From Oscillospiraceae bacterium (GTDB taxonomy: Bacteria; Bacillota; Clostridia; Oscillospirales; Oscillospiraceae), in the NCBI GenBank assembly GCA_009787625.1, contig WQSX01000025.1:1-39529 (forward strand): 39,529 bases of DNA, written 5' to 3'. Position numbers and translations under genes: made by a program. The notes beneath the pieces were generated by a model. That model was not told the DNA's origin. It did not search any database and saw nothing but the letters and a program-made list of their open reading frames with translations. Shown here piece by piece: positions 4,981-24,971 of this stretch. The number at the start of each line of letters is the position of its first letter. The first letter of the stretch is position 1.

Positions 4981-5076
4981 GCAGATAATATGTAATTTGC
5001 TACACTTTTTTGCGAGCCATCGGGATCTACACCGCTGTTCTCGCAAAAAAGATTCCGCAAACCACATATCATCTGC
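4981..5076 (+). repeat. Hairpin repeat element, copy A (grdB-trxB gap)
   Basis: This 96-nt palindrome has an outer stem GCAGATAATATG paired with CATATCATCTGC (one mismatch) and an inner stem TTTTTTGCGAG / CTCGCAAAAAA. The 23-nt loop at 5017-5039 begins CCATCGGG and ends CCGCTGTT. It ends 15 nt before the trxB start. The same element recurs at 6467, 13962, 17671, 20046 and 24876, always in this orientation. Confidence 0.9.
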
Positions 5077-5091
5077 TATGGAGGATTTTAA

Positions 5092-6030
5092 ATGGCAGAT
5101 ACAATTTATGATGTAATAATAGTCGGTGGTGGGCCTGCGGGTCTATCGGCGGGTCTCTACGCAGGGCGTGGTTTGCTGAAAACATTGCTCATAGAGAAAG
5201 GTCAGCACGGCGGACAAGCCGCTACGACCCACGAAATCGACAACTATCCCGGTGCGGTCGAAGATGAGACAGGTCCCGCACTTGTAGAGAAGATGGTAAA
5301 GCAGGCAGAGCGTTTTGGTGTTGAGTTCCAAACGGACGACATCACAGGTGCAGAGCTTGAGGGCGATGTGAAAACTCTTACGGGCTCGAAAGGCACATAC
5401 AAAGCAAAGACAGTAATCATTGCAAGTGGTGCTTTCCCAAGAACTCTCGGCTGTAAAGGCGAACTTGAGTTCACAGGCAAGGGTGTTTCCTACTGCGCCA
5501 CATGTGATGCGGCTTTCTTTGAAGAGCTGGAAGTCTACGTTGTCGGCGGTGGTGACAGTGCGGTTCAAGAGGCGCTGTTTATCGCCAGATTCGCAAGAAA
5601 AATTACAATCATTCAAAACTTGCCCGAACTCACAGCCGCAAAATCAATACAAGAGAAAGTGCTAAATGACCCGAAATTCAGCTTTGTCTACAGCTCAGTA
5701 GTTGAAGAGTTAAAGGGCGATGACGGTTTGCTTGATACAATCGTGGTGAAAAACGACAAAACAGGCGAGCTGACAGAGTTCAAAGCTGACCCTGAAGACG
5801 GCACATTCGGTCTGTTTGTATTCATCGGATTAATCCCAAGAACAGAGGCGTTTTCCGGTAAAATTGACATGGAACACGGTTACATCAGAACAGATGAAAA
5901 TATGCGCACAAACATAGAAGGCGTATACGCCGTAGGCGATTGCCGCATAAAGCCTTTACGCCAAGTAGTAACAGCAGCGGCAGACGGAGCGATAGCGGCA
6001 ATGCATATTGAAAAATACCTCGCACATTAG
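5092..6030 (+). CDS. trxB: Thioredoxin reductase TrxB
   Basis: This 312-aa flavoprotein transfers electrons from NADPH through FAD to thioredoxin, which in turn drives glycine reductase. The start ATG has GGAGG 7 nt upstream. Residues 10-20 hold the FAD-binding motif GGGPAGLSAG. The redox-active pair Cys135/Cys138 lies in YCATCDAAFF. The NAD(P)-binding motif GGGDSAVQEA follows. The C-terminal FAD motif is YAVGDCR. Length is typical for the low-molecular-weight class. Position between grdB and trxA ties it to the glycine reductase electron supply, as in other grd operons. The nicotinamide specificity is not decided by sequence inspection. Confidence 0.95.
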   Translation: MADTIYDVIIVGGGPAGLSAGLYAGRGLLKTLLIEKGQHGGQAATTHEIDNYPGAVEDETGPALVEKMVKQAERFGVEFQTDDITGAELEGDVKTLTGSKGTYKAKTVIIASGAFPRTLGCKGELEFTGKGVSYCATCDAAFFEELEVYVVGGGDSAVQEALFIARFARKITIIQNLPELTAAKSIQEKVLNDPKFSFVYSSVVEELKGDDGLLDTIVVKNDKTGELTEFKADPEDGTFGLFVFIGLIPRTEAFSGKIDMEHGYIRTDENMRTNIEGVYAVGDCRIKPLRQVVTAAADGAIAAMHIEKYLAH

Positions 6031-6037
6031 AGCGTTT

Positions 6038-6100
6038 GAAAAGAGCAAACACTCTTTTCGAACTTAGACTAATGATACTGAAGACGCACATTTTTGCGTC
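6038..6100 (+). other. Two small perfect hairpins in the trxB-trxA gap
   Basis: GAAAAGAG (6038-6045) pairs with CTCTTTTC (6052-6059), and GACGCA (6083-6088) pairs with TGCGTC (6095-6100). Neither is followed by a clear T-run, so they look like intra-operon mRNA stems (processing or stability) rather than full terminators. The first resembles the hairpin after grdC at 11637-11660. Confidence 0.5.
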
Positions 6101-6124
6101 CCGAAAAGAAAAGGAGCAAAAAAC

Positions 6125-6442
6125 ATGCTTGAACTGGACAAAGACACATTTGAACCCGAAGTGCTTAATGCAGACGGAACAATTTTCGTAGATTTCTACA
6201 GCGACTCATGCGAGCCTTGTCAGGCGCTTATGCCCACTGTACACGCTCTCGCCGACAAATACGGCGACAAGCTGAAGTTTACAAAACTAAACACAATGAA
6301 AGCTCGCCGCTTGGCGATTGCTCAAAAAGTAATGGGACTCCCTGTTATGGCAATCTACAAAGGCGGAGAAAAGATCGAAGAACTTGTAAAAGATGATTGC
6401 ACAGAAGAGGCAATCGAAAAAATGATTCAAGGGCACATCTAG
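6125..6442 (+). CDS. trxA: Thioredoxin TrxA of the glycine reductase system
   Basis: This 105-aa thioredoxin re-reduces the GrdA selenoprotein after each cycle. The active site is CEPC (Cys29, Cys32) within YSDSCEPCQALMP, unlike the usual WCGPC. Thioredoxins of glycine reductase operons often have such altered motifs. The cis-proline region is GLPVMAIY. The start ATG at 6125 has AAGGAG with 9-nt spacing. It is between trxB and grdA in the same orientation. The length is normal and there is no signal peptide. Confidence 0.93.
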   Translation: MLELDKDTFEPEVLNADGTIFVDFYSDSCEPCQALMPTVHALADKYGDKLKFTKLNTMKARRLAIAQKVMGLPVMAIYKGGEKIEELVKDDCTEEAIEKMIQGHI

Positions 6443-6466
6443 AGACAAGAGTAACCGTCTGTTTCC

Positions 6467-6562
6467 GCAGACGATGAGCAATTTACTCCGCTTTTTTGCG
6501 AGCCATCGGGATATACACCGCTGTTCTCGCAAAAAAGACTCCGTAAACAGCCCATCATCTGC
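6467..6562 (+). repeat. Hairpin repeat element, copy B (trxA-grdA gap)
   Basis: Same 96-nt architecture as copy A. The outer arms GCAGACGATGAGC / GCCCATCATCTGC contain two mismatches, and the inner arms CTTTTTTGCGAG / CTCGCAAAAAAG are perfect. The loop has one base change (GATATACAC instead of GATCTACAC). It ends 66 nt before grdA. Confidence 0.9.
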
Positions 6563-6628
6563 TAGACTGGAGGATGGTTGCGAGTCTTTAGTGCTAAATA
6601 ATCAATACACTGGAAAGGAGGAACGATA

Positions 6629-7099
6629 ATGAGTATGTTTGAAAATCGTAAACTCATTGTCATTGGAGACCGTGACGGAATTCCGGGTCCTGCTATTGAT
6701 GAGTGCTTGAAGACAGCCGGAGCAGAGATTGTATTCTCTTCTACTGAATGCTTCGTCTGAACAGCCGCAGGTGCAATGGATTTGGAAAATCAAAAAAGGG
6801 TCAAAGAATATGCAGAGCAGTTCGGTCCCGAAAATGTGATGGTTATCTTCGGCGCAGCCGAAGGAGAGGCAGCAGGTCTTGCCGCCGAAACAGTCACAGC
6901 GGGCGACCCCACGTATGCAGGTCCATTGACAGGAGTCTCGTTGGGACTCGCGGTATATCACGTCTGTGAGGACGCTATCAAAAATGCAGTAGACGCAGAT
7001 GTCTACGAAGAGCAAATCAGTATGATGGAAATGGTTCTTGATGTCGATGAAATCAAAAAAGAGATGGAAGCGATAAGAAGCCAATATACAAAGTATTGA
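6629..7099 (+). CDS. grdA: Glycine reductase complex selenoprotein A (GrdA)
   Basis: GrdA accepts the carboxymethyl group as a Se-carboxymethyl selenoether and passes it to protein C. The frame starts at ATG 6629 with AAGGAGG 7 nt upstream. It contains TGA at 6758-6760 read as selenocysteine 44 in [17 protein letters not shown], the family signature. The product is 156 aa, the normal size. An ordinary gene call would lose the first third of the protein and start at 6776. A SECIS is less clear than in grdB: a short GATTT/AAATC stem with a GGA loop at 6779-6791 is the best I see, at unusual distance. It is the last gene of the first grd transcript and is followed by a strong terminator. Confidence 0.95.
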
Positions 7100-7110
7100 T
7101 AAATGAAAAG

Positions 7111-7152
7111 CAGGGGAAGCGGAAGCAAAGCGAACCGTTTCCCTGTTTTTTG
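7111..7152 (+). terminator. Rho-independent terminator after grdA
   Basis: The left arm CAGGGGAAGCGG pairs with CCGTTTCCCTG with one bulge. A run of six T follows, starting about 7145. It closes the grdX-grdA transcript. Confidence 0.8.
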
Positions 7153-7314
7153 TTACAGTCATTTACTTTATTTTGCTTAGGCACAAAGTTATTGTACCGG
7201 TTCAATCGAGGAAGTAGTAATATGCAAAGGGTTAAGTAAAAATTTCAAGAAATGGAACAAATTACTTCAATACTCGTCAAAAACATGAACGACAAGATAG
7301 AAAGGAAGATTTTT

Positions 7315-7932
7315 ATGTTTAGAAAAGTATTGTTAGTAGTATTAATCCTTACATTATCTTTGGCAGTTATTTCATGTGACGATAATGTAGAAGAGCCTGT
7401 TCCAAATGAAGTAGTTGAAGATGTGCCTGAAACTCCTGAGGCTCCCGAAGTGCCTGAAATTCCTGCGACTGACGATGAAGAAGATTTTGTCGAAGCTGTG
7501 CCGCCTATTGCGGAGCTTCCTGAAGTTGATGTAGTGGAGCCTGATGACAATGATGAATTTGTACTATATCCGGTTTGGGTAGATGGCGTGGGTATTCCAA
7601 ATGCGAGTTTTGTAGTTGTTGGCGATGACTCACTGTTTCCGACTCATGTCTCACTTATGGCACTTGACCTCGCACTCAGCATGGATGTGTTTTGGAACAT
7701 GCAGACAGACGAGCTCTCACTCATGGGGCTAAATGGATTTGTCACCTTCACTGTTGGCTCAACAGAGTTCATAGTTGAAGGGGAAACCATAACCTTGGAG
7801 CAAGAGGTCGTGCGGATTGACGATGAAATATATGTACCGCTTCAATTTTTTAGAGATGTGTACGGAGCGGCAGGGGCATACTTCCTTGAAGGCAGTGTGT
7901 TCATAGACACCGAAGAGACAGATATGCACTAA
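7315..7932 (+). CDS. Lipoprotein with copper-amine-oxidase-like (stalk) domain
   Basis: This 205-aa secreted lipoprotein starts at ATG 7315, chosen over an upstream in-frame ATG at 7252 because AAGGAA lies 7 nt before it and a lipoprotein signal then begins at residue 1. The signal peptide ends at Cys21 (LAVISCDD). Residues about 22-75 are a low-complexity Pro/Glu/Asp/Val linker. The C-terminal domain, with VDGVGIPNASFVV and EIYVPLQFFRDVYG, resembles the copper amine oxidase N-terminal-like domain (PF07833) that is common in Firmicutes surface proteins and has no enzymatic role by itself. It lies between grdA and an antisense gene, outside normal grd operon content. Function is unknown. Confidence 0.75.
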   Translation: MFRKVLLVVLILTLSLAVISCDDNVEEPVPNEVVEDVPETPEAPEVPEIPATDDEEDFVEAVPPIAELPEVDVVEPDDNDEFVLYPVWVDGVGIPNASFVVVGDDSLFPTHVSLMALDLALSMDVFWNMQTDELSLMGLNGFVTFTVGSTEFIVEGETITLEQEVVRIDDEIYVPLQFFRDVYGAAGAYFLEGSVFIDTEETDMH

Positions 7933-7978
7933 TCACCAAACTGCCGGTCATGCTCATCTGCCGGTTCACGCAATGGAA

Positions 7979-8092
7979 GGGTTATTTGTTCCGCTTGTAG
8001 GGGCGGCCGTTTAGGTCGCCCCTTCTTGCCGTTTGCATAATGTAACTGTTACTTCGCAAAGCGTCTCCACAAACTGCCCTGCAGCTGCTACT
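7979..8092 (+). repeat. Disrupted copy of the hairpin element (copy G) with a nested repeat
   Basis: The left part TTATTTGTTCCGCTT (about 7982-7996) and the right part CTCCACAAACTGCCC (about 8068-8082) match the flanks of the hairpin elements. The inner stem and conserved loop are missing and replaced by a GTAGGGGC-type repeat (7997-8023) plus about 35 nt of other sequence. It lies in the gap between two converging genes. Confidence 0.5.
7997..8023 (+). repeat. GTAGGGGC palindromic repeat (copy 1)
   Basis: GGGGCGGCC and GGTCGCCCC form a stem around GTTTA. The T-poor tail makes it a poor terminator, though it sits between converging genes. Related copies are at 12998, 13047, 18778 and 27618. 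Confidence 0.6.
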
Positions 8093-8123
8093 TGTGACTA
8101 AACACAAGCAAACAGCGGTGTCG

Positions 8124-9734
8124 CTACCAAACTGCGATATGCCCGTCACAGCGGGACTCCATGCCACCGCATAAGACACCGCTGGCCGGGTCTCGCCAGA
8201 TGATATGTCCGTTACCAAATTTGACCGTTGCGGTCGAAATTGATACTTCGTGGCATTTTTTGGCTAGATTTTTGCTAATGTTCTCATCAAAATTAGACTC
8301 AATTTCAAACTCTTTGCCTTTAATCCACTGCCAACGCGGACGGTCTAAAGTCGCTTGTGGATTTAGGTTGAAGTCAATCGTATTCATTAGCACTTGCAAA
8401 TGACCCTGCGGTTGCATATATCCGCCCATAACACCAAAAGGTCCGATTGGGATTTCGTTTTTTGTCAAAAAGCCCGGTATTATAGTGTGATAAGTGCGTT
8501 TGCGTGGGGCGAGTGCATTGGCGTGGTCGGGGTTTAGGTGAAAGTCGCCGCCGCGATTTTGCATGGATATGCCGGTGCCGGGAATGACTATACCTGAGCC
8601 AAATCCTGAATAGTTACTTTGGATAAACGAGACCATGTTTCCATCTCCATCGGCAGTACATAGATATACTGTGCCGCCGGAATATGGGCTTATTGGACTC
8701 GGTTCCAGAGCTTTATCGGAGATGTTATCTCGCAGTTTGTCGGCGTATTCCTTACTCAGCAGGCTTTCCACAGAGATGCGCATATGATTGGGGTCGGTAA
8801 TGAATTCTTTGCCTGCTGTAAAGGCTAGTTTCATAGCCTCAAATGATTTGTGGTAACAGTCTTCGGGACTTAGGGAGCTGACATCAAACTCTCTTAAGAT
8901 GTTTAGAGCTATCAGAGTTACAAGTCCTTGTCCGTTCGGGGGCATTTCCCAGACATCATATCCGCGATAGTTTGTGAAAATCGGCTCCACCCACTCCGGT
9001 GTGTATTCCTCTAAATCGGACTTAGAGAGGAACCCACCGGACTTTGCCATGTAATCAGAGATAATGTCCGCCAGCCGTCCGCGGTAAAAACTTTCGCTGT
9101 TTGTTTCGGCTATTTCAAGCAGGTTTTCTGCATGTGCCTTAGAACTCCATATTTCACCGACCTTTGGTGGTTCCCCCTGCGGAGCAAATGTATCAAACCA
9201 CGCTTTAAAGTCATGTTCAGACGCAAGTTTCTTATAAAAAGAGTAGCCGTTACTCCAGTTTTTTGCGAGAACCGGGGATAGGGGATAGCCGCTTGATGCG
9301 TATTCAATTGCAGGTGTAAGGCACTCTTTAAGCGTGAGATTGCCAAATCTTGATGTCAACTCCGCCCAAGCCGCAGGAGCTCCGGGAACTGTAATCGGAA
9401 CAATTCCATGAGTTGGCATTTCTTTATACCCCAAGCTATGCAAAGCATCAATGCTTATGCTTTTAGGTGAATATCCGGAGCTGTTGAGTCCGAACATTTT
9501 GCCATTGAGCCAAACAATGGCGAAAGAGTCACTTCCTATTCCGTTTGAAGTCGGCTCGACAACTGTGAGAGCGGCGGCGGTTGCCACGGCGGCATCAACC
9601 GCATTTCCGCCTTTTTTCAGAACTTCTAAGCCTGCCTGTGCGGCAAGCGGTTGCGAGGTGGCGACCATGCCTTTTTTGCCATAAACGGGTCTTTTCTGCG
9701 TTGAATAAGGGTTGAAATCAGGATTAAAATTCAT
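8124..9734 (-). CDS. Gamma-glutamyltransferase-like hydrolase (YwrD type)
   Basis: This 536-aa Ntn-hydrolase family protein is expected to cleave gamma-glutamyl bonds (glutathione and similar), releasing glutamate. The start ATG at 9734 has AAAGGTGAG upstream. The family hallmark is the autocatalytic Thr355 in SGGTVYLCTADGDGNMVSF, which becomes the N-terminus of the small subunit. MGGYMQPQGHLQ is the conserved C-terminal motif. No signal peptide is present, so it is probably cytoplasmic, unlike the classical secreted enzyme. It is the only gene on the minus strand between grdA and grdC and splits the glycine reductase locus. Alternative: acylase activity on a different substrate within the same fold. 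Confidence 0.9.
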   Translation of the reverse strand: MNFNPDFNPYSTQKRPVYGKKGMVATSQPLAAQAGLEVLKKGGNAVDAAVATAAALTVVEPTSNGIGSDSFAIVWLNGKMFGLNSSGYSPKSISIDALHSLGYKEMPTHGIVPITVPGAPAAWAELTSRFGNLTLKECLTPAIEYASSGYPLSPVLAKNWSNGYSFYKKLASEHDFKAWFDTFAPQGEPPKVGEIWSSKAHAENLLEIAETNSESFYRGRLADIISDYMAKSGGFLSKSDLEEYTPEWVEPIFTNYRGYDVWEMPPNGQGLVTLIALNILREFDVSSLSPEDCYHKSFEAMKLAFTAGKEFITDPNHMRISVESLLSKEYADKLRDNISDKALEPSPISPYSGGTVYLCTADGDGNMVSFIQSNYSGFGSGIVIPGTGISMQNRGGDFHLNPDHANALAPRKRTYHTIIPGFLTKNEIPIGPFGVMGGYMQPQGHLQVLMNTIDFNLNPQATLDRPRWQWIKGKEFEIESNFDENISKNLAKKCHEVSISTATVKFGNGHIIWRDPASGVLCGGMESRCDGHIAVW

Positions 9735-9858
9735 AACTCACCTTTTCTTTCTGACATTTTTTTGAAAATTCCAACTGTAATGTGTTTGTAGATAAGTTTA
9801 ACTTTATCACATTATTTAAAAATAGCCAAATTACTCTTTAAAATACTGCAACACAACC

Positions 9859-9887
9859 TTGACAATACATCGCCAATAGAATATATT
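9859..9887 (+). promoter_or_regulatory. Predicted promoter of grdC-grdD
   Basis: TTGACA (9859-9864), 17-nt spacer and TATATT (9882-9887) are near consensus. Transcription would begin near 9894, leaving an approximately 205-nt leader that contains the long hairpin at 9909-10070. The 9735-10099 gap otherwise holds only the start signals of the divergent gene. Confidence 0.65.
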
Positions 9888-9908
9888 TAGATATACAAAC
9901 AGATACTA

Positions 9909-10070
9909 AGGGTATCTCCGAAAACCCACTGCCCGCCATCTTGGTAGGTCTTATTCCTCCACTCTTCGTCTATTTTCTTGAAATACTGTTAGTATTCCTG
10001 CGAAAATAGCCTTCGATTGGTGAAATAATACCCACCAATCTGCCAGACATTGAGTTTTCAGAGATACCCT
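9909..10070 (+). repeat. 162-bp long imperfect hairpin in the grdC leader
   Basis: The ends AGGGTATCTCCGAAAAC (9909-9925) and GTTTTCAGAGATACCCT (10054-10070) are inverted repeats with one mismatch. Pairing continues inward: TTGGTAGGTCTTATT against AATAATACCCACCAA with few mismatches, and near the tip CTATTTTC / GAAAATAG and AAATAC / GTATT. There is no coding potential. It looks like a MITE-like palindrome or a long leader stem. Confidence 0.75.
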
Positions 10071-10099
10071 AAAGCGAAAAGCTGAAAGGACTTATATTT

Positions 10100-11641
10100 A
10101 TGAATTCTGTACTAAAAGGCACCTCATATGTGCTCGTCCATGCACCTGATATGCTTGTGCATGGCGGAACAACGCAACTCACCGAGCGCATCACAAATCC
10201 TGATTCGGAGTATCTTAAAAATTTACCTAAACATCTGCGTAGCTTTGAAGATGCAGTGACTTATATGCCAAATCAGGTGTATATCGGTAACAATAAGCCC
10301 GAAAATTTAAACTCACTTGAGGGAGCTTGGTATGACAAGCCCGTAAAAGGTGCAGAGCGAACAGGTGAACGCGGTGAGATCATGCCGCAAGACGAGTTTT
10401 ACATATTAATGCAAGTTTCAGATGTGTTTGACTTGCTACTGCTTGAAAAAGGTTTTGTAAGTGAAACGCGCGTAAAGTTTGAAAAGCACCCACTGGTCGA
10501 CGATGAGATGAAAGCTCTGATACGTGAGGGTGTCGAAATAGGCGAAATCAAAAATGCTGTCGAAAACGAACATGCCGAAGGTGTGTATCAAGACGGCAAG
10601 CTAATTGGCTGTGTCAAGAAAGCACACGATATAGATGAAAACCTGTCGTCACATATCATATTGGAAAATTTGGTGTCAAAAGCGTCTGCTGTACTTTCGC
10701 TCTTACATCTAATAAAAGCAACAGGCATTGAAAAATCTGAGGTAGACCTTGTGCTTGACTGCTCGGAAGAGGCGGTTGGCGACATGAACCAGCGAGGCGG
10801 GGGAAATCTTGCAAAAGCTGCGGCAGAGACTGCGGGATTTAAGAATGCTTCAGGTGCGGACATTCGCGCATTTTGTGCGGCACCTGTTCATGCTATAATT
10901 CAAGCCGCCGCTTTAGTTGCAAGCGGAACACATGAAAACGTTGTAGTCGCCGCAGGTGGCTCGATAGCAAAGCTCGGTATGAACGCAAAAGACCATGTGA
11001 AAAAAGAAATGCCCGCCCTCGAAGATGTTATGGGCGGATTTGCTGTGTTAATTTCCAAAAATGACGGCAAAAGCCCTGAAATACTCAGCGCATTTACAGG
11101 CAAGCACAATGTCGGCACCGGCTCATCCCCGCAGGCGGTTATCACTTCTCTTGTGACAGACCCGCTTGACAAGATGGGCATAAAAATTTCCGACATCGAC
11201 AAATATTCAGTCGAAATGCAAAACCCGGATGTGACAAAACCCGCAGGCGCAGGCGATGTGCCACTTGCAAACTATAAGATGATTGCGGCACTCGGCGTAA
11301 AGCGCGGCGAGCTTGAAAGAGCCGGAATTGATGATTTTACAAAAAAACACGGAATGCCGGGTTGGGCACCGACTCAAGGACACATTCCTTCAGGTGTGCC
11401 ATATATGGGCTTTGCACGTGAGGCATTGATGTCAGGTGAAATAGAGCGTACCATGATTGTAGGCAAAGGAAGTTTGTTCTTAGGGCGCATGACAAATCTC
11501 TTTGACGGTGTATCTTTCATAATGCAGAAAAATAGCGGCGGCAGTGCAGATTCAGATTCAAATGCTGTTTCAGAAGCTGAGGTCAAAAAGCTAATTGCGG
11601 AGGCGATGAGAGAACTTGCTCGCTCAATGGGCGCAGTTTAA
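10100..11641 (+). CDS. grdC: Glycine reductase component C, beta subunit GrdC
   Basis: Protein C accepts the carboxymethyl group from GrdA as an acetyl thioester and releases acetyl phosphate. GrdC is the large subunit, 513 aa here, normal length. The start ATG at 10100 has AAAGGA with 9-nt spacing. The sequence shows the family N-terminus (KGTSYVLVHAPDMLVHGGTT) and a thiolase/FabH-like core with AFCAAPVHAII (candidate active-site Cys region) and GWAPTQGHIPSGVPYMGFAR near the C-terminus. It is cytoplasmic. It is separated from grdA by a lipoprotein and an antisense gene and has its own promoter, an unusual split. Confidence 0.95.
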   Translation: MNSVLKGTSYVLVHAPDMLVHGGTTQLTERITNPDSEYLKNLPKHLRSFEDAVTYMPNQVYIGNNKPENLNSLEGAWYDKPVKGAERTGERGEIMPQDEFYILMQVSDVFDLLLLEKGFVSETRVKFEKHPLVDDEMKALIREGVEIGEIKNAVENEHAEGVYQDGKLIGCVKKAHDIDENLSSHIILENLVSKASAVLSLLHLIKATGIEKSEVDLVLDCSEEAVGDMNQRGGGNLAKAAAETAGFKNASGADIRAFCAAPVHAIIQAAALVASGTHENVVVAAGGSIAKLGMNAKDHVKKEMPALEDVMGGFAVLISKNDGKSPEILSAFTGKHNVGTGSSPQAVITSLVTDPLDKMGIKISDIDKYSVEMQNPDVTKPAGAGDVPLANYKMIAALGVKRGELERAGIDDFTKKHGMPGWAPTQGHIPSGVPYMGFAREALMSGEIERTMIVGKGSLFLGRMTNLFDGVSFIMQKNSGGSADSDSNAVSEAEVKKLIAEAMRELARSMGAV

Positions 11642-11660
11642 AAAGAGCACTCTTTTTAAA
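11637..11660 (+). terminator. Hairpin overlapping the grdC stop codon (attenuator or weak terminator)
   Basis: TTTAAAAAGAG (11637-11647) and CTCTTTTTAAA (11650-11660) are perfectly complementary around a two-base gap. The right arm includes five T. It overlaps the grdC TAA and could reduce transcription into grdD. Confidence 0.5.
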
Positions 11661-11674
11661 TTGAATTTATGCTA

Positions 11675-11834
11675 GACAAGAAAGGTATGGTCATTAGTGT
11701 GAACAAGTTCAAACTAACGGGGGAATGTGTGATTTGCTCCCCCTGCGGGGAACCGCAAATGATGCACGTTAATGACCATACCTATTCATGGTCGTTTTGT
11801 GCCTCAAGTAAACAAGAAAGGTATGGTCATTAAT
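11675..11834 (+). promoter_or_regulatory. Candidate translational control leader of grdD with alternative stems
   Basis: Segment 1 (11684-11701, GGTATGGTCATTAGTGTG), segment 2 (11765-11782, CACGTTAATGACCATACC) and segment 3 (11820-11833, GGTATGGTCATTAA) can pair 1:2 (two mismatches) or 2:3 (14 perfect bp). Segment 3 abuts the grdD ATG and includes the end of its AAGAAAGG ribosome binding site. A G-rich/C-rich hairpin (GGGGG at about 11719 with CCCCC at about 11739) sits between 1 and 2. The arrangement would allow 1:2 pairing to free the grdD start. Confidence 0.55.
11699..11833 (+). CDS. Possible 44-codon leader ORF upstream of grdD
   Basis: A GTG start at 11699 lies 21 nt downstream of the beginning of AAGAAAGG (11678), exactly the geometry of the real grdD start (11814 to 11835). 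The ORF ends with TAA at 11831-11833, one base before the grdD ATG. The peptide begins MNKFKLTGECVICSPCGEP and contains a CxxCxxC-like run and several His. Its end resembles the reading of the related element before obg (MMH..FC..GH pattern), though this may follow from nucleotide similarity. It may be a leader peptide that couples translation to grdD. No homologous protein is recognised. Confidence 0.35.
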   Translation: MNKFKLTGECVICSPCGEPQMMHVNDHTYSWSFCASSKQERYGH

Positions 11835-13001: not shown

Positions 13002-13078
13002 GGGCATTAGCAATCGCCCGCCAATGTGGATTCTACAGCACCACATGTAGGGGACAGCGTCCTTGACAGGAAAAAACG
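12998..13078 (+). repeat. GTAGGGGC repeats (copies 2 and 3) in the grdD-sortase gap
   Basis: GTAGGGGCATTAGCAATCGC (12998 onward) contains the grdD TAG stop at 12999-13001. A second unit GTAGGGGACAGCGTCC starts at 13047 after the small hairpin ATGTGG/CCACAT. Together they fill nearly the whole 80-nt gap. Confidence 0.6.
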
Positions 13079-13961: not shown

Positions 13962-14056
13962 GCAGGCGATGGGCTGTTCTCGAAATATTATTTCGAGCCA
14001 TCGGGATCTACACCGCTGTTCTCGAAATAATATTTCGCAAACAGCCCATCACCTGC
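13962..14056 (+). repeat. Hairpin repeat element, copy C (after sortase)
   Basis: This is a 95-nt copy whose inner stem has a completely different sequence, CGAAATATTATTTCGAG paired perfectly over 17 bp with CTCGAAATAATATTTCG, yet the loop is unchanged. The outer arms GCAGGCGATGGGCTGTT / AACAGCCCATCACCTGC have one mismatch. This is the clearest evidence that the stem is kept by pairing rather than by sequence. Confidence 0.9.
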
Positions 14057-17655: not shown

Positions 17656-17670
17656 TGCGCTTTGGTTCTC

Positions 17671-17764
17671 GCAGATACTGGGCAATTTGTTCCGCTTTTT
17701 TTCGAGCCATCGGGATATACACCGCTGCTTCGAAAAGCGACTCCACAAACAGCCCACTATCCGC
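17671..17764 (+). repeat. Hairpin repeat element, copy D
   Basis: This 94-nt copy has more degenerate arms (GCAGATACTGGGC / GCCCACTATCCGC) and an inner stem CGCTTTT / AAAAGCG plus TCGA pairs. The loop begins CCATCGGGATATACACC and has lost two bases at its 3' side. It ends 39 nt before the ferredoxin gene. Confidence 0.85.
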
Positions 17765-17803
17765 TACATTAGTGGATCGCTGATTGTGTGTTAGAAAGGA
17801 TTA

Positions 17804-18295
17804 ATGTTTTCTATGCTGATAAATGATGGAATTCCTCGAGCGGAAGATTTGATGAAAGTGACACCCTCGGACGAGCGATTTAGCAAAGGCCCTGTTGTCA
17901 TTGTGGAGTGTTTTCAAGAGATACCTTGTGACCCGTGCGTGAAGTCCTGTAAGCGTGGTGCAATTACCATGCCTAATGGTATCAATGATATTCCTGTGGT
18001 GGATTTTGACCTTTGTAATGGTTGTAGTTTGTGTATTTCAATGTGTCCGGGTCTTGCGATATTTGTCGTGGACAAAACTTGGAGTGAAGACCGTGCGCGG
18101 GTGCTGATTCCTTATGAATATTTGCCAATTCCCGACAAGGGTCAGATGGTGAAAGGCCTCGACAGAGCGGGTAAAGAGCTTGGAAGTTTTGAGGTTATTC
18201 GTGTCACTTCTGGTGGTAAAAAGAACAAGACGTGGACAATTTCTCTCGCAGTGCCGCAAGCTCTGGCTATGGATGTGCGCGGATTGCTCGTTTGA
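17804..18295 (+). CDS. 4Fe-4S dicluster ferredoxin-like subunit
   Basis: This 163-aa iron-sulfur protein has two cysteine motifs: Cys42-x2-Cys45-x3-Cys49 with Cys36 upstream, and the classical Cys71-x2-Cys74-x2-Cys77-x3-Cys81-Pro. The first is irregular, with the fourth ligand likely Cys36 or another residue. No signal peptide is seen. Ribosome site GAAAGGA lies upstream of ATG 17804. It sits in the middle of the dehydrogenase genes and is best read as the electron-transfer subunit that links FAD and a soluble acceptor, like the small ferredoxin subunit of archaeal proline dehydrogenase complexes (inference). Confidence 0.85.
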   Translation: MFSMLINDGIPRAEDLMKVTPSDERFSKGPVVIVECFQEIPCDPCVKSCKRGAITMPNGINDIPVVDFDLCNGCSLCISMCPGLAIFVVDKTWSEDRARVLIPYEYLPIPDKGQMVKGLDRAGKELGSFEVIRVTSGGKKNKTWTISLAVPQALAMDVRGLLV

Positions 18296-18305
18296 AAACA
18301 CTGGC

Positions 18306-18434
18306 GTCAACTTAATAGAAACCCTTGTCCCCGTCATTGCGGGCATGACCCGCAATCCCCTTATTTAGCGCGTTATTCAGGGGATTCTGGGTCAAGCCCA
18401 AAATGACTATGATTTTAAGTTTGTTTAAGTTGAC
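18306..18434 (+). repeat. REP-like palindromic repeat (GTCATTGCGGGC type)
   Basis: GTCATTGCGGGCATGACCCG at 18333 pairs imperfectly with CTGGGTCAAGCCCAAAATGAC ending at 18407. Outer perfect inverted ends GTCAACTTAA (18306-18315) and TTAAGTTGAC (18425-18434) bracket it. Repeats of this sequence type occur across many bacterial genomes. It separates the ferredoxin and BFD-like genes. Confidence 0.65.
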
Positions 18435-18493
18435 AGCTGTGAATAGAAAATAGTTTGCACTGTTTATACTAAAAGTTATGAAAGGTTGACCTT

Positions 18494-18781
18494 ATGAAAA
18501 ACAAAGATACAGAGATAATGATTTGTCGCTGTGAAGATGTAACTCGACAGCAAGTACTTGATTGTATAAATGCCGGGTACAGGACAATTGATGAAATAAA
18601 GCGTGTCACAAGGGCGGGCATGGGACCGTGCCAAGGTCGTACTTGTCGCCAGCTCATAGCGTTTGAGCTTTCAAGAGCGTACAACGTGCCGATGGAAGAG
18701 GTCTTAATGCCGACGTTTCGCCCGCCCACAAAACCCATGAGTCTGGGCGCTCTGGCTGATGCCTATAGCGAAAACATGTAG
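18494..18781 (+). CDS. BFD-like [2Fe-2S] protein
   Basis: This 95-aa protein has the bacterioferritin-associated-ferredoxin-like fold signature: Cys11-x-Cys13 (ICRCEDVT) and Cys46-x4-Cys51 (GMGPCQGRTC). In many amine oxidases this domain is the C-terminal end of the alpha subunit; here it is a stand-alone gene, further evidence that the complex is split. GAAAGG precedes ATG 18494. The TAG stop at 18779-18781 is inside a GTAGGGGC repeat. Confidence 0.88.
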   Translation: MKNKDTEIMICRCEDVTRQQVLDCINAGYRTIDEIKRVTRAGMGPCQGRTCRQLIAFELSRAYNVPMEEVLMPTFRPPTKPMSLGALADAYSENM

Positions 18782-18804
18782 GGGCGACCGTCCCCGGTCG
18801 CCCG
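18778..18804 (+). repeat. GTAGGGGC palindromic repeat (copy 4)
   Basis: GGGGCGACCG and CGGTCGCCCG form a stem around TCCC. The TAG of the repeat is the stop codon of the BFD-like gene. Confidence 0.7.
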
Positions 18805-18844
18805 TTTCACAGGTTATGTGATTCTGAAAGGAATGGTCATTTTA

Positions 18845-19993
18845 ATGAAAAAAGCATATGATGTTGTAATAATAGGTGGGGGCATTATTGGGTGTTCCGT
18901 TGCCTTTGAGCTTGCCAAGAATGGGCGTAAAGATATTTTGGTTATCGAGCAAGAGTACCTCACATCGGGGGCCACAGGGCGTTGCGGTGCAGGAATCCGT
19001 CAGCAGTGGGGTTCGTATCTCAATGCAAGGCTTGCCGTAGAGAGCACACATATTTTCGAGAATATGGAAGAATACACGGGTTATGACGGCAGTGTGGGTC
19101 TCAACCAAGGTGGGTATTTACTTGTTGCGTATACAGATAAAGAATGGGCACAGTTTCAAAAAAATCTGGAACTTCAGCACTCGCTCGGAATTAATTCATT
19201 TGCGGTTGATTTAGACGGCATTAAGGATATAGTGCCGCATATCAACACTGACGGGATGTACGGTGCGTGTTTCTGCGCAAAGGACGGTCACGCCGACCCG
19301 TTCCATTGTACCTACGCATATGCAAAAGGTGCTGAGAGATACGGTGTGACTGTTGCAACTTATACAAAAGTGACAGGACTCGTAACTGAAAGCGGGCGCA
19401 TAAAAGCTGTTGAGACAGATAAGGGTACGGTGGAGGCAAAAACTGTCATAAATTGCACCGGAGGTCATGCCGCGCAAATGGCTTCGCTGGTTGGTGAAGA
19501 TTTGCCCATAAAACCTGAGCGCCACCAAATCTTGATAACTGAGCCTGTGGCTCACATCATGGATCCGATGGTCATGTCTTTTCATCGCCATTTCTATGTT
19601 CAGCAAACGCCGCACGGGAGTGTTATAATGGGATTCGGTGACGTAACAGAGCCTATGAGCTACAATATCCGCAGTTCTTGGCAATATTTGGAAGAAAATG
19701 CACATATAGTCACACAGACTTTGCCGGCGTTTCGAGAGCTTCGTGTGGTACGCCAGTGGGCGGGTCTCTACGACATGAGTCCTGACCGCTATCCTATAAT
19801 AAGTGAGGCAAAAGGTGCGGCGGGATTCTGGACAATTGCGGGTTTCTCAGGTCATGGATTCATGATAGCACCACGAGTGGCGGTTCTTGTGGCAAATCAC
19901 CTCACAGGGAAAGAGGACAGCATTGACATAAACATGTTATCAACGGAGCGATACGAGACGGGAGAACTGCTTGTTGAGCCTTCTGTTGTTTGA
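18845..19993 (+). CDS. FAD-dependent amino/imino-acid dehydrogenase, catalytic beta subunit (DAO family)
   Basis: This 382-aa flavoprotein of the D-amino-acid oxidase / sarcosine oxidase beta family should oxidise a secondary amine or imino acid. The start ATG 18845 is chosen because the Rossmann motif VVIIGGGIIGCSVAFEL then begins at residue 7; two in-frame ATG/GTG options upstream are too close to the ribosome site GAAAGGA. The segment SGATGRCGAGIRQQW is the FAD-binding signature of this family, and the C-terminal TIAGFSGHGFMIAP is the conserved end motif. With the genes from 16260 on it forms a heteromeric dehydrogenase. Candidate substrates are sarcosine, proline or hydroxyproline; sequence reading alone cannot choose. 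Confidence 0.88.
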   Translation: MKKAYDVVIIGGGIIGCSVAFELAKNGRKDILVIEQEYLTSGATGRCGAGIRQQWGSYLNARLAVESTHIFENMEEYTGYDGSVGLNQGGYLLVAYTDKEWAQFQKNLELQHSLGINSFAVDLDGIKDIVPHINTDGMYGACFCAKDGHADPFHCTYAYAKGAERYGVTVATYTKVTGLVTESGRIKAVETDKGTVEAKTVINCTGGHAAQMASLVGEDLPIKPERHQILITEPVAHIMDPMVMSFHRHFYVQQTPHGSVIMGFGDVTEPMSYNIRSSWQYLEENAHIVTQTLPAFRELRVVRQWAGLYDMSPDRYPIISEAKGAAGFWTIAGFSGHGFMIAPRVAVLVANHLTGKEDSIDINMLSTERYETGELLVEPSVV

Positions 19994-20045
19994 CCCGTGA
20001 CCCGCAGGGGACGGCATCCTCGACGTCCCGCACCGCATTATTCCC

Positions 20046-20141
20046 GCAGATAATGGGCAATTTGTTCCGCTTTTTTGCGAGCCATCGGGATCTACACCGC
20101 TGTTCTCGCAAAAAAGACTCCACAAATAGCCCATTATCCGC
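20046..20141 (+). repeat. Hairpin repeat element, copy E
   Basis: This 96-nt copy has perfect outer GATAATGGGC / GCCCATTATC and perfect inner CTTTTTTGCGAG / CTCGCAAAAAAG stems. It follows a GGGGACGGC palindrome (about 20007-20027) and ends 38 nt before the fumarase-like gene. Confidence 0.92.
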
Positions 20142-20179
20142 TGGTCTTTAGATAAGATTTTGAATGGAGTATTTTTCAT

Positions 20180-21019
20180 ATGCGAAAAATAGACGCTACC
20201 CTAATTACTCAGGCTGTTAAAGCAATGTGCATTGACGCAAATATTATTTTGCCAAAAGATGTTCGTAGTTCCATTGACTCATGTTTGAAAATGGAAGAAT
20301 ATCCACAGGCGAAGGAATCGCTGGAGCTTATAACAAAAAACTATGAGATTGCCGAACGGGAGGATGTTCCTATATGCCAAGATACAGGTGTGGCATGTGT
20401 TTTTGTGGAGCTTGGGCAGGATGTTCATGTTGTTGGCGATATTACAGATGCAATAAACGAGGGAGTCAGACAGGGTTATAGAGACGGCTATCTGCGCCTT
20501 TCGGTCGTTGGCGACCCTCTACAGCGAAAAAACACCGAAGATAATACACCCGCCATGATTTATTTTGACATTGTGCCGGGAGATAAGTGCAAAATTACTG
20601 TAGCTCCAAAGGGTTTTGGTAGTGAGAACATGAGCAGGCTCGCCATGTTAAAGCCGTCAGAGGGGCTGAGTGGAGTTAAAAGCTTTGTGATACAGACTGT
20701 GGAGCAGGCGGGAGCTAATCCGTGTCCACCCATAGTTGTGGGTGTTGGTATCGGCGGAACATTCGACAAATCGGCACTCTTGGCAAAAAAGGCTTTGATG
20801 CGTGACACAGACGATATTAATCCCAACCCTGAGTATGCAAAACTCGAATCAGAGTTGCTTGAATCAATAAACGCACTGGGCATCGGACCGCAAGGCTTTG
20901 GCGGGCGCACAACTGCTCTGGCAGTGAAGATAAACACCATGGCAACGCATATCGCCGGACTTCCGGTCGCCGTGAACCTAAACTGCCATGTGGCAAGGCA
21001 TATGACAAAATATTTATAA
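20180..21019 (+). CDS. Class I fumarase-like hydro-lyase, alpha subunit (probable mesaconase)
   Basis: This 279-aa protein matches the N-terminal subunit of two-subunit, oxygen-sensitive [4Fe-4S] hydro-lyases (fumarase, tartrate dehydratase, mesaconase). Cluster ligands fit Cys66 in VPICQDTG, the Cys in GANPCPPIV and the Cys in NLNCHVARH. The motif GIGGTFDKSALLAKKA is also typical. It is followed 16 nt later by the beta subunit. Next to glutamate mutase and methylaspartate ammonia-lyase, the likely reaction is hydration of mesaconate to (S)-citramalate, though plain fumarase activity is an alternative. A GGAG at about 20164 gives a long spacing to the start. Confidence 0.9.
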   Translation: MRKIDATLITQAVKAMCIDANIILPKDVRSSIDSCLKMEEYPQAKESLELITKNYEIAEREDVPICQDTGVACVFVELGQDVHVVGDITDAINEGVRQGYRDGYLRLSVVGDPLQRKNTEDNTPAMIYFDIVPGDKCKITVAPKGFGSENMSRLAMLKPSEGLSGVKSFVIQTVEQAGANPCPPIVVGVGIGGTFDKSALLAKKALMRDTDDINPNPEYAKLESELLESINALGIGPQGFGGRTTALAVKINTMATHIAGLPVAVNLNCHVARHMTKYL

Positions 21020-21035
21020 CGTCCGGAGAATACAA

Positions 21036-21614
21036 ATGACTACAAAAGAAATCACAACACCATTGAAGAAAAGTGACGTTAAGTCGCTGAAATGCGGAGA
21101 TTCTGTACTGCTCACAGGTGAAATATACACTGCGCGTGATGCCGCACATAAGAGGCTTGTTGAGGCGATGCAAAAAGGCGAAGATTTGCCATTTGATTTA
21201 CAAGACAGTATAATATACTACGTTGGTCCGACGCCACCTGTACCGGGCAGGGTGATAGGTTCGGCAGGGCCGACAACAAGCGGTCGAATGGATGCCTATG
21301 CTCCCACGCTCATTAAAGAGGGAATTACGGCAATGATAGGTAAGGGTGTCCGCACTTCTGATGTAATAAGTGCAATGAAAGAGCATACGGCTGTCTACTT
21401 TGGGGCGCTCGGAGGAGCCGGAGCTTACCTTGCGGAGTGTGTGGAATCATCTCAACTGGTGGCATATGAAGACTTAGGTGCAGAGGCGATTCGGCGCTTA
21501 ACTGTAGCAAAAATGCCTTTGACCGTCATAATCGACTGCGAAGGCAATAACCTATATGAAAAAGGCAGAGCGTTATATTTGGATTTCAGAGGTAAAGGGG
21601 AAACAGATGAGTAA
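21036..21614 (+). CDS. Class I fumarase-like hydro-lyase, beta subunit
   Basis: This 192-aa protein is the C-terminal subunit partner of the preceding gene. It shows the family segment [20 protein letters not shown] with GPTTSGRMD, which forms the substrate carboxylate site, and IGKGVRT. The start ATG 21036 has GGAG upstream. It overlaps the glutamate mutase S gene by 8 nt, which couples the hydro-lyase to the methylaspartate pathway and favours the mesaconase reading. Confidence 0.9.
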
Positions 21615-22017
21615 AGGTAAACTGGTTTTGGGGGTCATCGGCGCAGATGTTCATGCTGTGGGCAATAAAATATTGTTTCATGCATTCACAGGGGCAGGAT
21701 TTGATGTGACAAACCTCGGTGTTATGGTTTCGCAAGAGGAATTCATTGCCGCGGCTATTGAAACCGATGCAGATGCAATAATTGTCTCGTCACTCTATGG
21801 GCATGGTGAACTTGATTGCAGAGGTATGAGGGATAAATGTATAGAGAGCGGTATTGATAACATATTACTCTATGTGGGTGGCAACATTGTTGTGGGCAAA
21901 CAGCCATTTGAAGATGTTGAAAAACGATTTAAAGCCATGGGATTTGATAGAGTGTTTCCACCGGGAAGTACACCTGAAGATGCAATTGAATCTCTCGCAA
22001 AAGACATTAAGAAATAG
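21607..22017 (+). CDS. glmS: Glutamate mutase (methylaspartate mutase) sigma subunit
   Basis: This 136-aa protein binds adenosylcobalamin for the carbon-skeleton rearrangement of L-glutamate to (2S,3S)-3-methylaspartate. The B12 motif is complete: Asp14-Val-His16-Ala-Val-Gly19 ([11 protein letters not shown]), with Ser/Leu-rich VSSLYGHGE and the GGNIVVG loop later. Start ATG 21607 lies inside the end of the previous gene with a GGGG-containing upstream region. An upstream in-frame ATG at 21556 is rejected because family members begin here. Length is standard. Confidence 0.95.
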
Positions 22018-22034
22018 ACCGGGGCAGGCTGAGC

Positions 22035-23384
22035 ATGGAGTGTATTTTACTAATAGATTATGGAAGCACTTATACAAAGGTAACAGCGGTAGACTTGTCG
22101 ACCGCAAGCATCTTAGGCACTTCATCGGCATTTACCACGGTCGAGACTGATGTAAGCCAAGGGCTTAATAATGCGCTTGATGAACTTTACAAGCAAACAG
22201 GCAAAATCACAGCTCAAAAAACATTGGCGGCGTCAAGTGCCGCAGGTGGGCTGAAAATGGTTGCTATCGGACTTGTTCCGGAACTTACGGCGAAGGCGGC
22301 TTCTATGGCTTCTATGGGTGCCGGGGCAAAGGTCATAGGGTCATACAGCTTTGAATTGACTGAGGACGATATTGCGGAAATAATAAGCCTTTCACCCGAT
22401 ATATTACTTCTAACAGGCGGCACTGACGGTGGCAATAAAAACTGCATTTTACACAATGCTAAAATGCTCTCGCAGGTCAATTGCGTTTTTCCGATAATTG
22501 TAGCAGGCAACAGCAAATGCACTTCCGATATTAAGAAACTTTTGGCAAATCACAGGGCATATTTTTGTGAAAATGTCATGCCTACGATTGGAACATTAAA
22601 TACTGAGCCGACACGGCAGTTGATTCGTGATATTTTCCTTGAAAGAATTGTTTTGGCAAAGGGCTTAAAGGGTGTTTTGATGCCAACACCGTCGGCTGTA
22701 CTCACTGCGGCGGAGCTGCTTGCAAAGGGTCATGAAAACAGTCCCAGATTGGGAGACCTTTTGCTCATTGATGTAGGCGGAGCTACAACCGATGTTTATT
22801 CTGTGGGTTACGGCGACCCATCGCGCGCGGGGACGATACTTCAAGGATTGCCTGAACCGTGGGCAAAACGCACCGTCGAGGGTGATATAGGGATGAGATA
22901 CTCCTCAGGCGGAATTGTTGACGCCGTGGGTTTGAGACGAGTAGCTGAGTTATCGAATCAAAGCGAACAAGCAGTTTCCGAGAGAGTTGACTTTATAATG
23001 AATAATCCATCTGTTCTATCTCAGAATGACGATGAAGCCAAGCTGGATTTTGCGCTGGCGGCTCTTGCGATAGAAACAGCAACTTTGCGTCATGCGGGGA
23101 GCTATGAAGAGGTCTACACAATAGCCGGTCTGACATATGCACAGACTGGAAAAGACTTATCAGAGACAAAAAACCTAATTTTGACAGGCGGTGCGCTCAT
23201 TCACTCCGATAATCAAATCGAGTTGTCGAAATTTGCGCAGCACAGCGAAAATTTCCCGCAATCACTACGTCCTAAAAATGCAAAGCTACTGGTAGACAGA
23301 GAATATATACTCGCATCAATGGGGCTTTTGTGTTCATATGCGCCGGAGACAGCGCTTGAAATAATGTTAGAAAACTTGACATAA
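22035..23384 (+). CDS. glmL: Glutamate mutase accessory protein GlmL (MutL)
   Basis: This 449-aa ATPase-like protein of the actin/hexokinase fold is thought to act as a reactivase or chaperone for glutamate mutase. The N-terminal phosphate motif is [16 protein letters not shown]. The second half carries [15 protein letters not shown] and the adenosine-type motif [10 protein letters not shown]. It lies between the two mutase subunits, the usual order in clostridia. The ribosome site is weak (GGCAGG), so coupling to the upstream gene, which ends 17 nt before, is likely. Confidence 0.93.
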
Positions 23385-23407
23385 GGACATTTTCAGGAGA
23401 AATCAAT

Positions 23408-24856
23408 ATGGAACTACAAAACAAAAAAATCGACAAAGATGAGTTTATGGCTTCGAGGGCAGAGATTTTAACCCAGTGGCCGACAGGGGCGAGAGTAGAC
23501 CTTGATGAAGCTGTGGAGTTTCACAATGCTCTTCCAAAGAAAAAATTATTTTCCAGAAAGCTCCGCGATGCAAAAAAGAAAGGCAAAACCCTAATTCAGC
23601 CGCGTGCCGGTGTAGCTTTGGTGAGTGAGCATATCGAGCTTTTGACTTATCTCCAAGATAAGGGCGAGGCTGATTTATTGCCAACGACTATCGACTCATA
23701 CACACGTCAAAACCGCTATAAAGAAGCGGAGGACGGCATTGAGGAGAGTGTAAAGCAGAGCAAGTCCATGCTCAACGGTTTCCCTGCGGTAAATCATGGT
23801 GTAGACAGTTGCCGCTCAATCGTCACAAGCCTTGATGTGCCTGTGCAAATTCGCCACGGCACACCCGACGCCCGCTTGCTCACTGAAATTTCCTATGCAG
23901 GCGGCTTTACGAGCTATGAGGGTGGTGGAATTTCGTATAATATTCCCTACGCAAAAGATGTCACGCTCGAAAAAACCATACGCGACTGGCAATACGCTGA
24001 CCGCCTTACGGGTCTCTATGAGGAAATGGGTGTGAGCATAAACCGCGAGCCGTTCGGGCCGCTCACAGGCACACTTGTGCCGCCCTGTATTTCTCATGCG
24101 GTTGCTATAATTGAAAGCCTGCTTGCCGCAGAGCAGGGTGTGAAAAACATAACAGTTGGTTATGGGCAGTGCGGCAACCTTGTTCAAGATGTATCTGCGA
24201 TTAGGTCTCTTGAAGAGCTGACAGAGGCATATCTCGCCGAGCATGGGTACACCGATATCTGTGTAACTACGGTTTTACATCAATTTATGGGAGGTTTCCC
24301 TGCTGATGAGGCAAAAGCCTTTGGTGTTATTTCGTGGGGAAGTGCCGTGGGTGCTCTCTCCGGTGCCACAAAAATAATTGTCAAAACTCCGCACGAAGCG
24401 ATAGGCATTCCGACAATGGAGGCAAATGCCCAAGGTCTTCGTTGCACAAAGCAACTGATTTCAATGCTTGCAGACCAGAGACTGGATAATCAGCAGGTAG
24501 ATGAGGAGAAGCGAATAATTAAAGAGGAAACACGCTGTATCATCGATAAGTGTTTTGAACTCGGCGAGGGTGACATTGCAAAAGGTGCTGTGCGTGCCTT
24601 TGAGGCAGGTGTCATCGACATACCTTTTGCTCCGAGCAGACATAACGCAGGAAAAATGCTCCCTGCACGTGACAATAACGGCGCAATTAGAATTTTTGCT
24701 CCCGGAGCATTGCCGTTCAATAAAGAACTTCTTGATTTCCACGCTGAAAAAATAGCGGAGAGAGCGGCATTTGAAAGACGGCAGGCGTCATTCCAAATGG
24801 TCATTGACGACGTTTATGCTATCGGCAAAGGTGACTTGGTAGGCAGACCTAGGTAA
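23408..24856 (+). CDS. glmE: Glutamate mutase (methylaspartate mutase) epsilon subunit
   Basis: This 482-aa TIM-barrel catalytic subunit forms the active mutase with the sigma subunit and adenosylcobalamin. The start ATG 23408 has AGGAG with 8-nt spacing. Family-typical segments include [27 protein letters not shown] with the substrate-binding Arg, [17 protein letters not shown] and [11 protein letters not shown]. Length and order are standard. The downstream gap holds hairpin copy F before methylaspartate ammonia-lyase. Confidence 0.96.
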
Positions 24857-24875
24857 TTTTTGTCGCTTCGTACCC

Positions 24876-24971
24876 GCCCGAAATTGGCTATTTGTTCCGC
24901 TTTTTTGCGAGCCATCGGGATCTACACCGCTGTTCTCGCAAAAAAGACTCCACAAACAGCCAATTTCGGGC
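24876..24971 (+). repeat. Hairpin repeat element, copy F
   Basis: This 96-nt copy has outer arms GCCCGAAATTGGC / GCCAATTTCGGGC, perfect over 13 bp and unlike those of the other copies; the inner stem and loop are identical to copy E. It ends 50 nt before methylaspartate ammonia-lyase. Confidence 0.92.

Follow-up and report, generated by a model that had tools for sequence, protein, structure and literature searches.

Intergenic hairpins of an Oscillospiraceae genome and their probable origin as ISBst12-type miniature transposable elements

The window considered here is a 39,529-nucleotide stretch, contig WQSX01000025.1 of an Oscillospiraceae bacterium (assembly GCA_009787625.1; 3.02 Mb, 94 contigs, 95% complete, 5.5% contamination), in which six hairpins lie in a single shared orientation among glycine/sarcosine-reductase and methylaspartate genes. 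These hairpins belong to a large repeat family and are probably the cores of miniature inverted-repeat transposable elements (MITEs) mobilised by a transposase of the ISBst12 type, a group of the IS66 family. The genome of the window is designated G000, other G numbers denote other genomes, and L numbers denote extracted loci. The term plus orientation refers to the strand on which the hairpins were read in a preliminary description of this DNA, i.e., the + strand of the window, and the term structured strand refers to its reverse complement. The hairpins and one relic are listed below, with bit scores from R1, a covariance model built from G000 copies.

4981..5076, minus strand: MITE hairpin core, copy 1, with its loop at 5017-5039 on the plus strand; between grdF-like and trxB-like genes; R1 109.4 bits
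6467..6562, minus strand: MITE hairpin core, copy 2, with trxA and grdA on either side; R1 116.2 bits
7963..8090, no strand assigned: decayed relic, a seventh copy without the loop, in which another palindromic repeat (GTAGGGGCGGCCG...) replaces the loop and inner arm
13962..14056, minus strand: MITE hairpin core, copy 3, with an AT-rich inner stem and an almost perfect palindrome
17671..17764, minus strand: MITE hairpin core, copy 4, whose loop ends in the variant CTGCT-TCG; R1 97.6 bits
20046..20141, minus strand: MITE hairpin core, copy 5, preceding a gene for fumarate hydratase
24876..24971, minus strand: MITE hairpin core, copy 6, between the genes for methylaspartate mutase subunit E and methylaspartate ammonia-lyase; R1 118.1 bits

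All six copies named in the preliminary description were recovered at their positions and in one orientation, and its account of their sequence was confirmed: the 23-nt loop has one variable base, plus an altered CTGCT end in the fourth copy (its copy D), and the paired arms diverge, those of copy 6 being of the GCCCGAAA type at their outer ends. A scan of the window for the loop pattern with three or fewer mismatches gave 7 matches against 0.20 expected, the seventh of which, with 3 mismatches, looks unrelated. Folding of copies 3 and 5 yielded z-scores of -12.6 on the plus and -12.3 on the minus strand for the former; copy 5 reached -8.6 on the plus strand, with energies of -48.7 on the plus and -54.6 on the minus strand. 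Across the genome, the loop pattern at the same threshold recurs 135 times, 69 times forward and 66 times in reverse, and the reversed-pattern control gave 0 matches, so that the confinement to an amino-acid metabolism region suggested by the six copies did not survive.

From these matches 99 distinct copies were extracted, of which 94 were aligned after 5 cut by contig ends had been dropped. The model from G000 copies found at least 150 matches in G000, several being the opposite strand of one hairpin. Among eight weaker matches that were inspected, L254 and L256 carry another loop and in L257 the centre is replaced by another palindromic repeat, a nested replacement of the same kind as in the relic at 7963-8090; the remaining five have the main loop exactly or with few changes, their arms in some cases being different, damaged or truncated. 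Both the loop and the arms of L256 (G000:C36:1-105) are typical of G005, and this locus is possibly a recently transferred sequence or a contig from a contaminant. The covariance-model search called for in the preliminary description, run with a model of the 94 copies, detected the family in G000 and in congeners, which carry it with other loops; the G000 loop itself, at two or fewer mismatches, was absent from the other genomes of a 60-genome search, 18 of them congeners. A second model, built from 58 copies of 8 genomes and scored, like R1 in G000, on the best 150 candidates per genome, placed the family in 12 of the 19 same-genus genomes, G000 included. The counts, which include some second-strand matches, were at least 149 of the best 150 in G000, 107 in G005, 66 in G018, 32 in G006, 25 in G008, 14 in G007, 13 in G016, 9 in G009, 3 each in G004 and G002, 2 in G003 and 1 in G015. 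Matches in G002, G003 and G015 are weak only (best E 6e-6 to 1.4e-5), with none at E<=1e-5 in G002. Across 295 genomes of the order, a search of lower sensitivity, with stricter filters and the best 13 candidates each, returned only G000 and one borderline match (E 8e-4). For the neighbouring trxB-like gene, the nearest relatives with names are metagenome-assembled genomes of Oscillospiraceae and Clostridiales, which, judging from their isolate names, presumably come from termite guts. Copy 5 had no blastn match and the exact loop was absent from viral contigs, and a phage or plasmid origin of the hairpins was rejected on these grounds. The exact loop was also absent from a genome-contig collection that may leave out G000 and near genomes. 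The statement that no named family has this loop thus holds within Rfam, the viral and genome contigs, and blastn.

The boundaries of the repeat unit lie beyond the hairpin, where information in the flanks drops to background after about 15-18 nt. Terminal repeats GTAACTGTTCA/TGAATAGTTAC were recognised at both ends of 11 of the 94 aligned G000 copies and at one end of 12, the other 71 having none; shuffled flanks gave 0 both-end cases. With a slightly wider end pattern, both ends were found in 26 of 162 copies from four genomes (12 in G000, 5 in G005, 5 in G018 and 4 in G006), and in these 26 copies the 8 bp outside the ends match at 0.683, compared with 0.289 for shuffled pairings (0 of 500). 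Agreement peaks at this length, falling to 0.363 at 7 bp, 0.440 at 9 bp and 0.327 at 10 bp, and the 8-bp duplication is perfect in L078, L208, L215, L307, L313 and L314. Full elements, which contain no transposase gene, are 133 bp long in G000; those of G006 and G018 measure 140-141 bp. Sites occupied in G000 and lacking the element in a relative include two in L091 and one more in G007. The L091 gap corresponding to the site of copy 1 is 40 nt long and lacks the element, and alignment likewise showed the element missing from the L091 counterpart of copy 2, which itself retains decayed terminal repeats, recognised by eye, at about 6451-6459 and 6573-6581. The 71 end-less copies revealed no fixed duplication offset (exact 8-bp repeat in 3 of 71, compared with 0.7 when permuted), and orphan ends in G006 had no new insertion sequence behind them. 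A different, 162-bp hairpin at L214:570-731 (G018) is bounded by similar ends (GTTGCTATTCAG/CTGAATTGTTAC), with ATGTAGGG as its perfect 8-bp duplication; it perhaps represents another MITE family served by the same mover.

A candidate partner has ends of this type. Genes for IS66 transposases (PF03050) are present in 7 of the 19 genus genomes (G000, G001, G003, G005, G006, G010 and G016), and in G006 one of them belongs to a 1,895-bp IS66-type element, L341, bounded by GTAACTATTCAG/CTGAACAGTTAC and flanked by a perfect 8-bp duplication, CTTTTTCA. Its 519-aa protein scores above the NCBIfam IS66 cut-off. In L344 (G001) the ends match and the flanking duplication does not, while L343, L345, L350 and L351 have one matching end nearby. 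The proteins of these five loci exceed the Pfam cut-off, and all but that of L351 were also compared with the NCBIfam cut-off and fell below it. Across 13 IS66 loci the end motif occurs 8 times, in 6 of the 13, compared with 0.82 from shuffles, and it has 0 occurrences in 22 control loci carrying Y1 or reverse-transcriptase genes. Other IS66 copies in the genus (L339, L340 and L347) have a different end, GTAAGCG. A short open reading frame (ORF) of about 150 aa adjoins the IS66-type transposase gene in L350 (144-599), L343 and L344; it is cysteine-bearing in L350 and L343, and that of L350 has no Pfam match.

Other movers were weighed against the same data. Movement of a REP/REPIN-type palindrome as single-stranded DNA by a Y1 transposase, of the RAYT or IS200/IS605 kind, would accord with a TAG at the 5' foot of the structured strand in 62 of 94 copies and with the compensatory changes described for REPINs in the available part of that report (PMC3116915). 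The Y1_Tnp domain (PF01797) occurs in 8 of the 19 genus genomes, among them the family carriers G003, G004, G016 and G006, the last with 32 family matches. However, it was not found in G000, G005 and G018, the three richest genomes, or in G007, G008 and G009, and the 8-bp duplications do not fit, as Y1 elements are not known to make target duplications. A REP/RAYT or IS200/IS605 origin was rejected on the missing transposase and, unless the part missing from these genomes holds a Y1 gene, is to be regarded as extremely improbable. Reverse-transcriptase mobilisation was also set aside: RVT_1 (PF00078) was not found in G000, G005, G006 and G008, and was found in G018, G007 and G009.

The divergence of the arms with retention of pairing, noted for the six copies in the preliminary description, extends to the whole family. 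In the 94 G000 copies 95.8% of cells are paired, 19 of 30 pairs show double changes, and cells changed on both sides number 293, compared with 67 in shuffles. The covariation score of 0.312 compares with at most 0.069 when partners are slid, and that of the 58-copy set from 8 genomes reaches 0.540 compared with at most 0.131, although these counts are not independent events, since related copies inherit changes. In many copies the middle block is non-complementary, a short motif running in the same direction in both arms. It has been perfected with the common 5' form in both arms of L007, L079 and L083 and with the common 3' form in both arms of L014, L039, L065 and L070, which of the two is original being an assumption, and at least 25 of 27 inner positions are paired in 15 of the 94 copies. 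No linkage was seen in G000 between inner-stem type and outer arms. Because the mismatched middle block is perfected in either direction, arm-to-arm copying (quasipalindrome correction) probably yields part of the covariation. Template switching turns imperfect palindromes into perfect ones, according to the available part of one study (PMC7202029), and perfected middle blocks are its expected outcome, which cautions against reading the covariation as selection only. An ordinary decaying MITE could be supposed on this basis, with mobility evident from ends and duplications, covariation arising only from arm-to-arm template switching that perfects arms in both directions, loop identity arising only from recent spread or recombination between copies, and no constraint on folding or loop.

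The remaining mismatches are one-sided, which such copying alone should not make them, as it ought to be symmetric. Unpaired cells in plus orientation comprise 100 A.C, 16 G.T and 17 others, and 16 pair positions favour A.C compared with 2 favouring G.T. Since A.C on one strand is G.U on the opposite one, the wobble-tolerant strand is the reverse complement, where 41 of 58 copies show G.U at one pair. Of 157 copies from 8 genomes, 148-150 fold better as the reverse complement, the range reflecting strand assignment; in the count of 150, this held for 87 of 94 G000 copies and for 63 of 63 from seven other genomes. The bias would reflect a preference for folding of one strand, which leaves behind mostly G.T or G.U mismatches there. 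Deamination of an exposed strand is an unlikely cause, given that the unpaired loop should then suffer most and is nearly invariant.

Whether this strand belongs to the transcripts of neighbouring genes bears on a further possibility, namely that the hairpins are cis-acting RNA in those transcripts, as attenuators, stabilisers or terminators. With gene positions from an ORF caller of our own, 104 of 106 copies lie clear of called ORFs, the median distance to a neighbouring stop codon is 24-26 nt and that to the next start is 95 or 52 nt, and convergent sites outnumber divergent ones by 15 to 4; such positions, and the stable fold of both window copies folded, are in keeping with an RNA role. 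The preliminary description had placed most copies before start codons and in the orientation of flanking genes; the former is better stated as just after stop codons, and the latter is a bias and not a rule, plus orientation being sense in 39 of 57 copies between co-directional genes. The structured strand is thus antisense in those 39 cases. Moreover, the ratio of A.C to G.T cells in G000 is 36:5 where neighbouring genes lie in plus orientation, 17:3 where they lie on the other strand, 11:2 at convergent and 8:0 at divergent sites (65 of 84 labelled copies), and since the bias is equal in all these directions it belongs to the element and not to the transcripts around it. No intrinsic terminator was found at copies 1-5 or in the scanned part of copy 6 (4950-24949), in a scan whose loop limit of 8 nt would miss the hairpin, and no T run follows the hairpins by eye. 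Rfam gave no match above gathering threshold at the copies, and copy 5 at E<=1 drew only 19.6 and 15.2 bits against cut-offs of 85 and 55, so that a known RNA family was rejected on sub-threshold scores (window at gathering threshold; copy 5 at E<=1). A cis-acting role in neighbouring transcripts is accordingly very unlikely.

The loop and arms seem to have different histories. Identical loops are found in 87 of 96 G000 rows (the 94 copies, L254 and L256). On average, loops agree at 0.977 within G000, a value inflated by the selection of all 94 aligned copies via the loop, and at 0.618 between G000 and G005, whereas mean outer-arm identity is 0.602 and 0.593, respectively; single cross-genome pairs have outer arms up to 93% alike and loops 57% alike. 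This contrast may stem from selection on the loop, from conversion among copies or from saturation of the short arms, and picking copies by their loop tilts it toward the first two. Loops are not uniform in every genome, as both G005 and G008 have several kinds. In G005 the types number 16, 8, 5 and 3 other among 32 copies, and outer-arm identity is 0.618 within and 0.639 between types, i.e., loop type is unlinked to arms, as recombination in a decaying MITE predicts. In G000, however, the exact loop persists in 66 of the 71 copies without recognisable ends, and stem pairing is 95.5% in those copies and 94.5% in copies with ends. A dead MITE should presumably decay about equally throughout; here the ends are unrecognisable in most copies and stem pairing and loop are kept. 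The decaying MITE without constraint is therefore unlikely. As the loop is nearly identical in G000 while the arms are common to several genomes, the loop may be homogenised or held in trans, by a protein that binds it, by a partner RNA or through conversion among copies. A takeover after mobility, in which one strand of each hairpin with its genome-specific loop would be recognised by a trans-acting factor, about 135 loops being kept in step with that factor and replaced together upon a change of recognition code between species, is a tentative and rather doubtful proposal.

The terminal repeats, the 8-bp duplication, L341 and the likeness to ISDge4 discussed below class the family as ISBst12-type MITEs. 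With a probability of roughly three in four, each hairpin forms the core of a MITE of 133-141 bp that is, or formerly was, moved in trans by an ISBst12-type transposase of the IS66 family. A single-ORF transposase of this family would act on ends like GTAACTGTTCAG and make the 8-bp target duplications; the movement in trans is what we infer from the observed ends, duplication and element with matching ends. Most G000 insertions would be old, given the many copies without ends and a transposase present only as a fragment, the long inner palindrome having persisted. The mobile nature of the hairpins is of a known kind and well supported, and the combination of one-strand folding with genome-specific loops is unusual. 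The preliminary description had left the choice between a mobile palindrome and a cis-acting RNA; the former is borne out by terminal repeats, target duplications and an IS66-type element whose ends are alike, and the latter fares poorly on the plus orientation, the opposite strand being wobble-tolerant, the bias ignoring gene direction and Rfam giving no match. That description had also reserved the case of a mere decaying MITE for copies in both orientations, with target duplications, whose arms diverge without compensation: both orientations and duplications were found, and uncompensated divergence was not.

Several observations weigh against the ISBst12-type reading. Only G006 yielded, once, a complete element with matching ends and a perfect duplication, and the ends of that element are slightly unlike the commonest MITE ends seen there (GTTACTRRTCAC). 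G000 shows only a transposase fragment (L345, 217 aa), and a search for IS66 genes at E<=0.001 detected none in G018, G007, G008 or G009, which have 66, 14, 25 and 9 MITE matches. Both ends are kept by only 11-12 of the 94 G000 copies, among which only L078 has a perfect duplication. Loop identity in G000 is inflated by the selection mentioned above, and the covariance-model searches, which can admit other loops, scored the best 150 candidates only. With equal partner numbers, the best arm match of a G000 copy is 0.787 in G000 and 0.750 in G005, and 82 of 96 G000 copies have their nearest arms inside G000; shortness and saturation may give the arms an appearance of sharing. Strands of other relatives' copies were assigned by R1, trained on G000, only the G000 figure being wholly independent of that model; assigning L207 and L219 by hand gives 150 of 157, and assignment by better model score gives 148 of 157. 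L207 is also one row of the 58-copy alignment, probably in the wrong strand, and belongs to the G018 rows used for comparing loop and arm identity. Finally, several G000 copies stand at the same sites as copies of relatives, mostly in the same orientation and in one case the opposite. The arm identities of five such pairs (0.63, 0.52, 0.56, 0.48 and 0.70) lie at the 29th to 88th percentile of random pairs, and shared ancestry of single insertions was therefore dropped; because their arms are not more alike than those of random pairs, same-site copies are read as reflecting target preference.

The hairpins also appear to receive other repeats. A second palindromic repeat (GTAGGGGCGACCGTC...GGTCGCCC) occurs at window positions 18772-18804, 27612-27644 and about 7995-8025, as well as in L257 and L262:560-720, recurrently inside, or in place of, MITE hairpin centres. 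In L329 (G006:C10, near base 183) another palindromic repeat is inserted in the loop of a MITE copy, and MITE loops may be targets for further palindromes. Among the neighbouring genes, a SECIS match lies at 4704-4741, immediately 3' of the TGA closing the grdF-like ORF, and an in-frame TGA seems to interrupt the ORF of grdA (about 6629-7110); both genes of this glycine/sarcosine reductase cluster probably encode selenoproteins. By eye, ATGTCAAAAgtgGAAGT is nearly repeated several times at 14100-14240, an arrangement that looks like an operator array, immediately 5' of a perfect sigma-70 consensus promoter (TTGACA-17-TATAAT at 14205-14233).

These results indicate that a large MITE family probably owes its movement to an element of the ISBst12 type, and they caution that covariation alone is no proof of a functional RNA. 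The family offers a natural test of the shares of covariation that stem from arm-to-arm copying and from selection on the single-stranded form.

Known systems share parts of this pattern. The bcr1 repeat of Bacillus cereus, a structured repeat of Firmicutes, has a predicted conserved stem-loop and a similar size, 147-167 bp, whereas a genome-specific invariant loop on shared arms is not among its features in the portion of the description available (PMC2267715). REPIN/REP sequences with RAYT are likewise high-copy intergenic palindromes with compensatory hairpin changes, as far as the accounts at hand describe them; unlike them, the present hairpins have terminal repeats and 8-bp duplications, and no Y1 transposase was found in the three richest genomes. 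IS66 elements with 8-bp repeats have been tabulated, in the accessible part of one survey (PMC3281130), and ISDge4 of the ISBst12 group is described, in the section available, with ends GTAACTGCTCAGCA/GTGACTACTCAGCA, an 8-bp repeat and a single ORF (PMC12898284). A single search of the open literature for a combination of ISBst12 with a MITE returned nothing, and the present elements differ from ISDge4 in having no gene and a 96-nt hairpin instead. To the extent that these sources go, the likeness lies in the end, GTAACTGCTCAG compared with GTAACTGTTCAG here (11 of 12 positions), in the 8-bp duplication and in the single-ORF IS66 transposase of the presumed partner.

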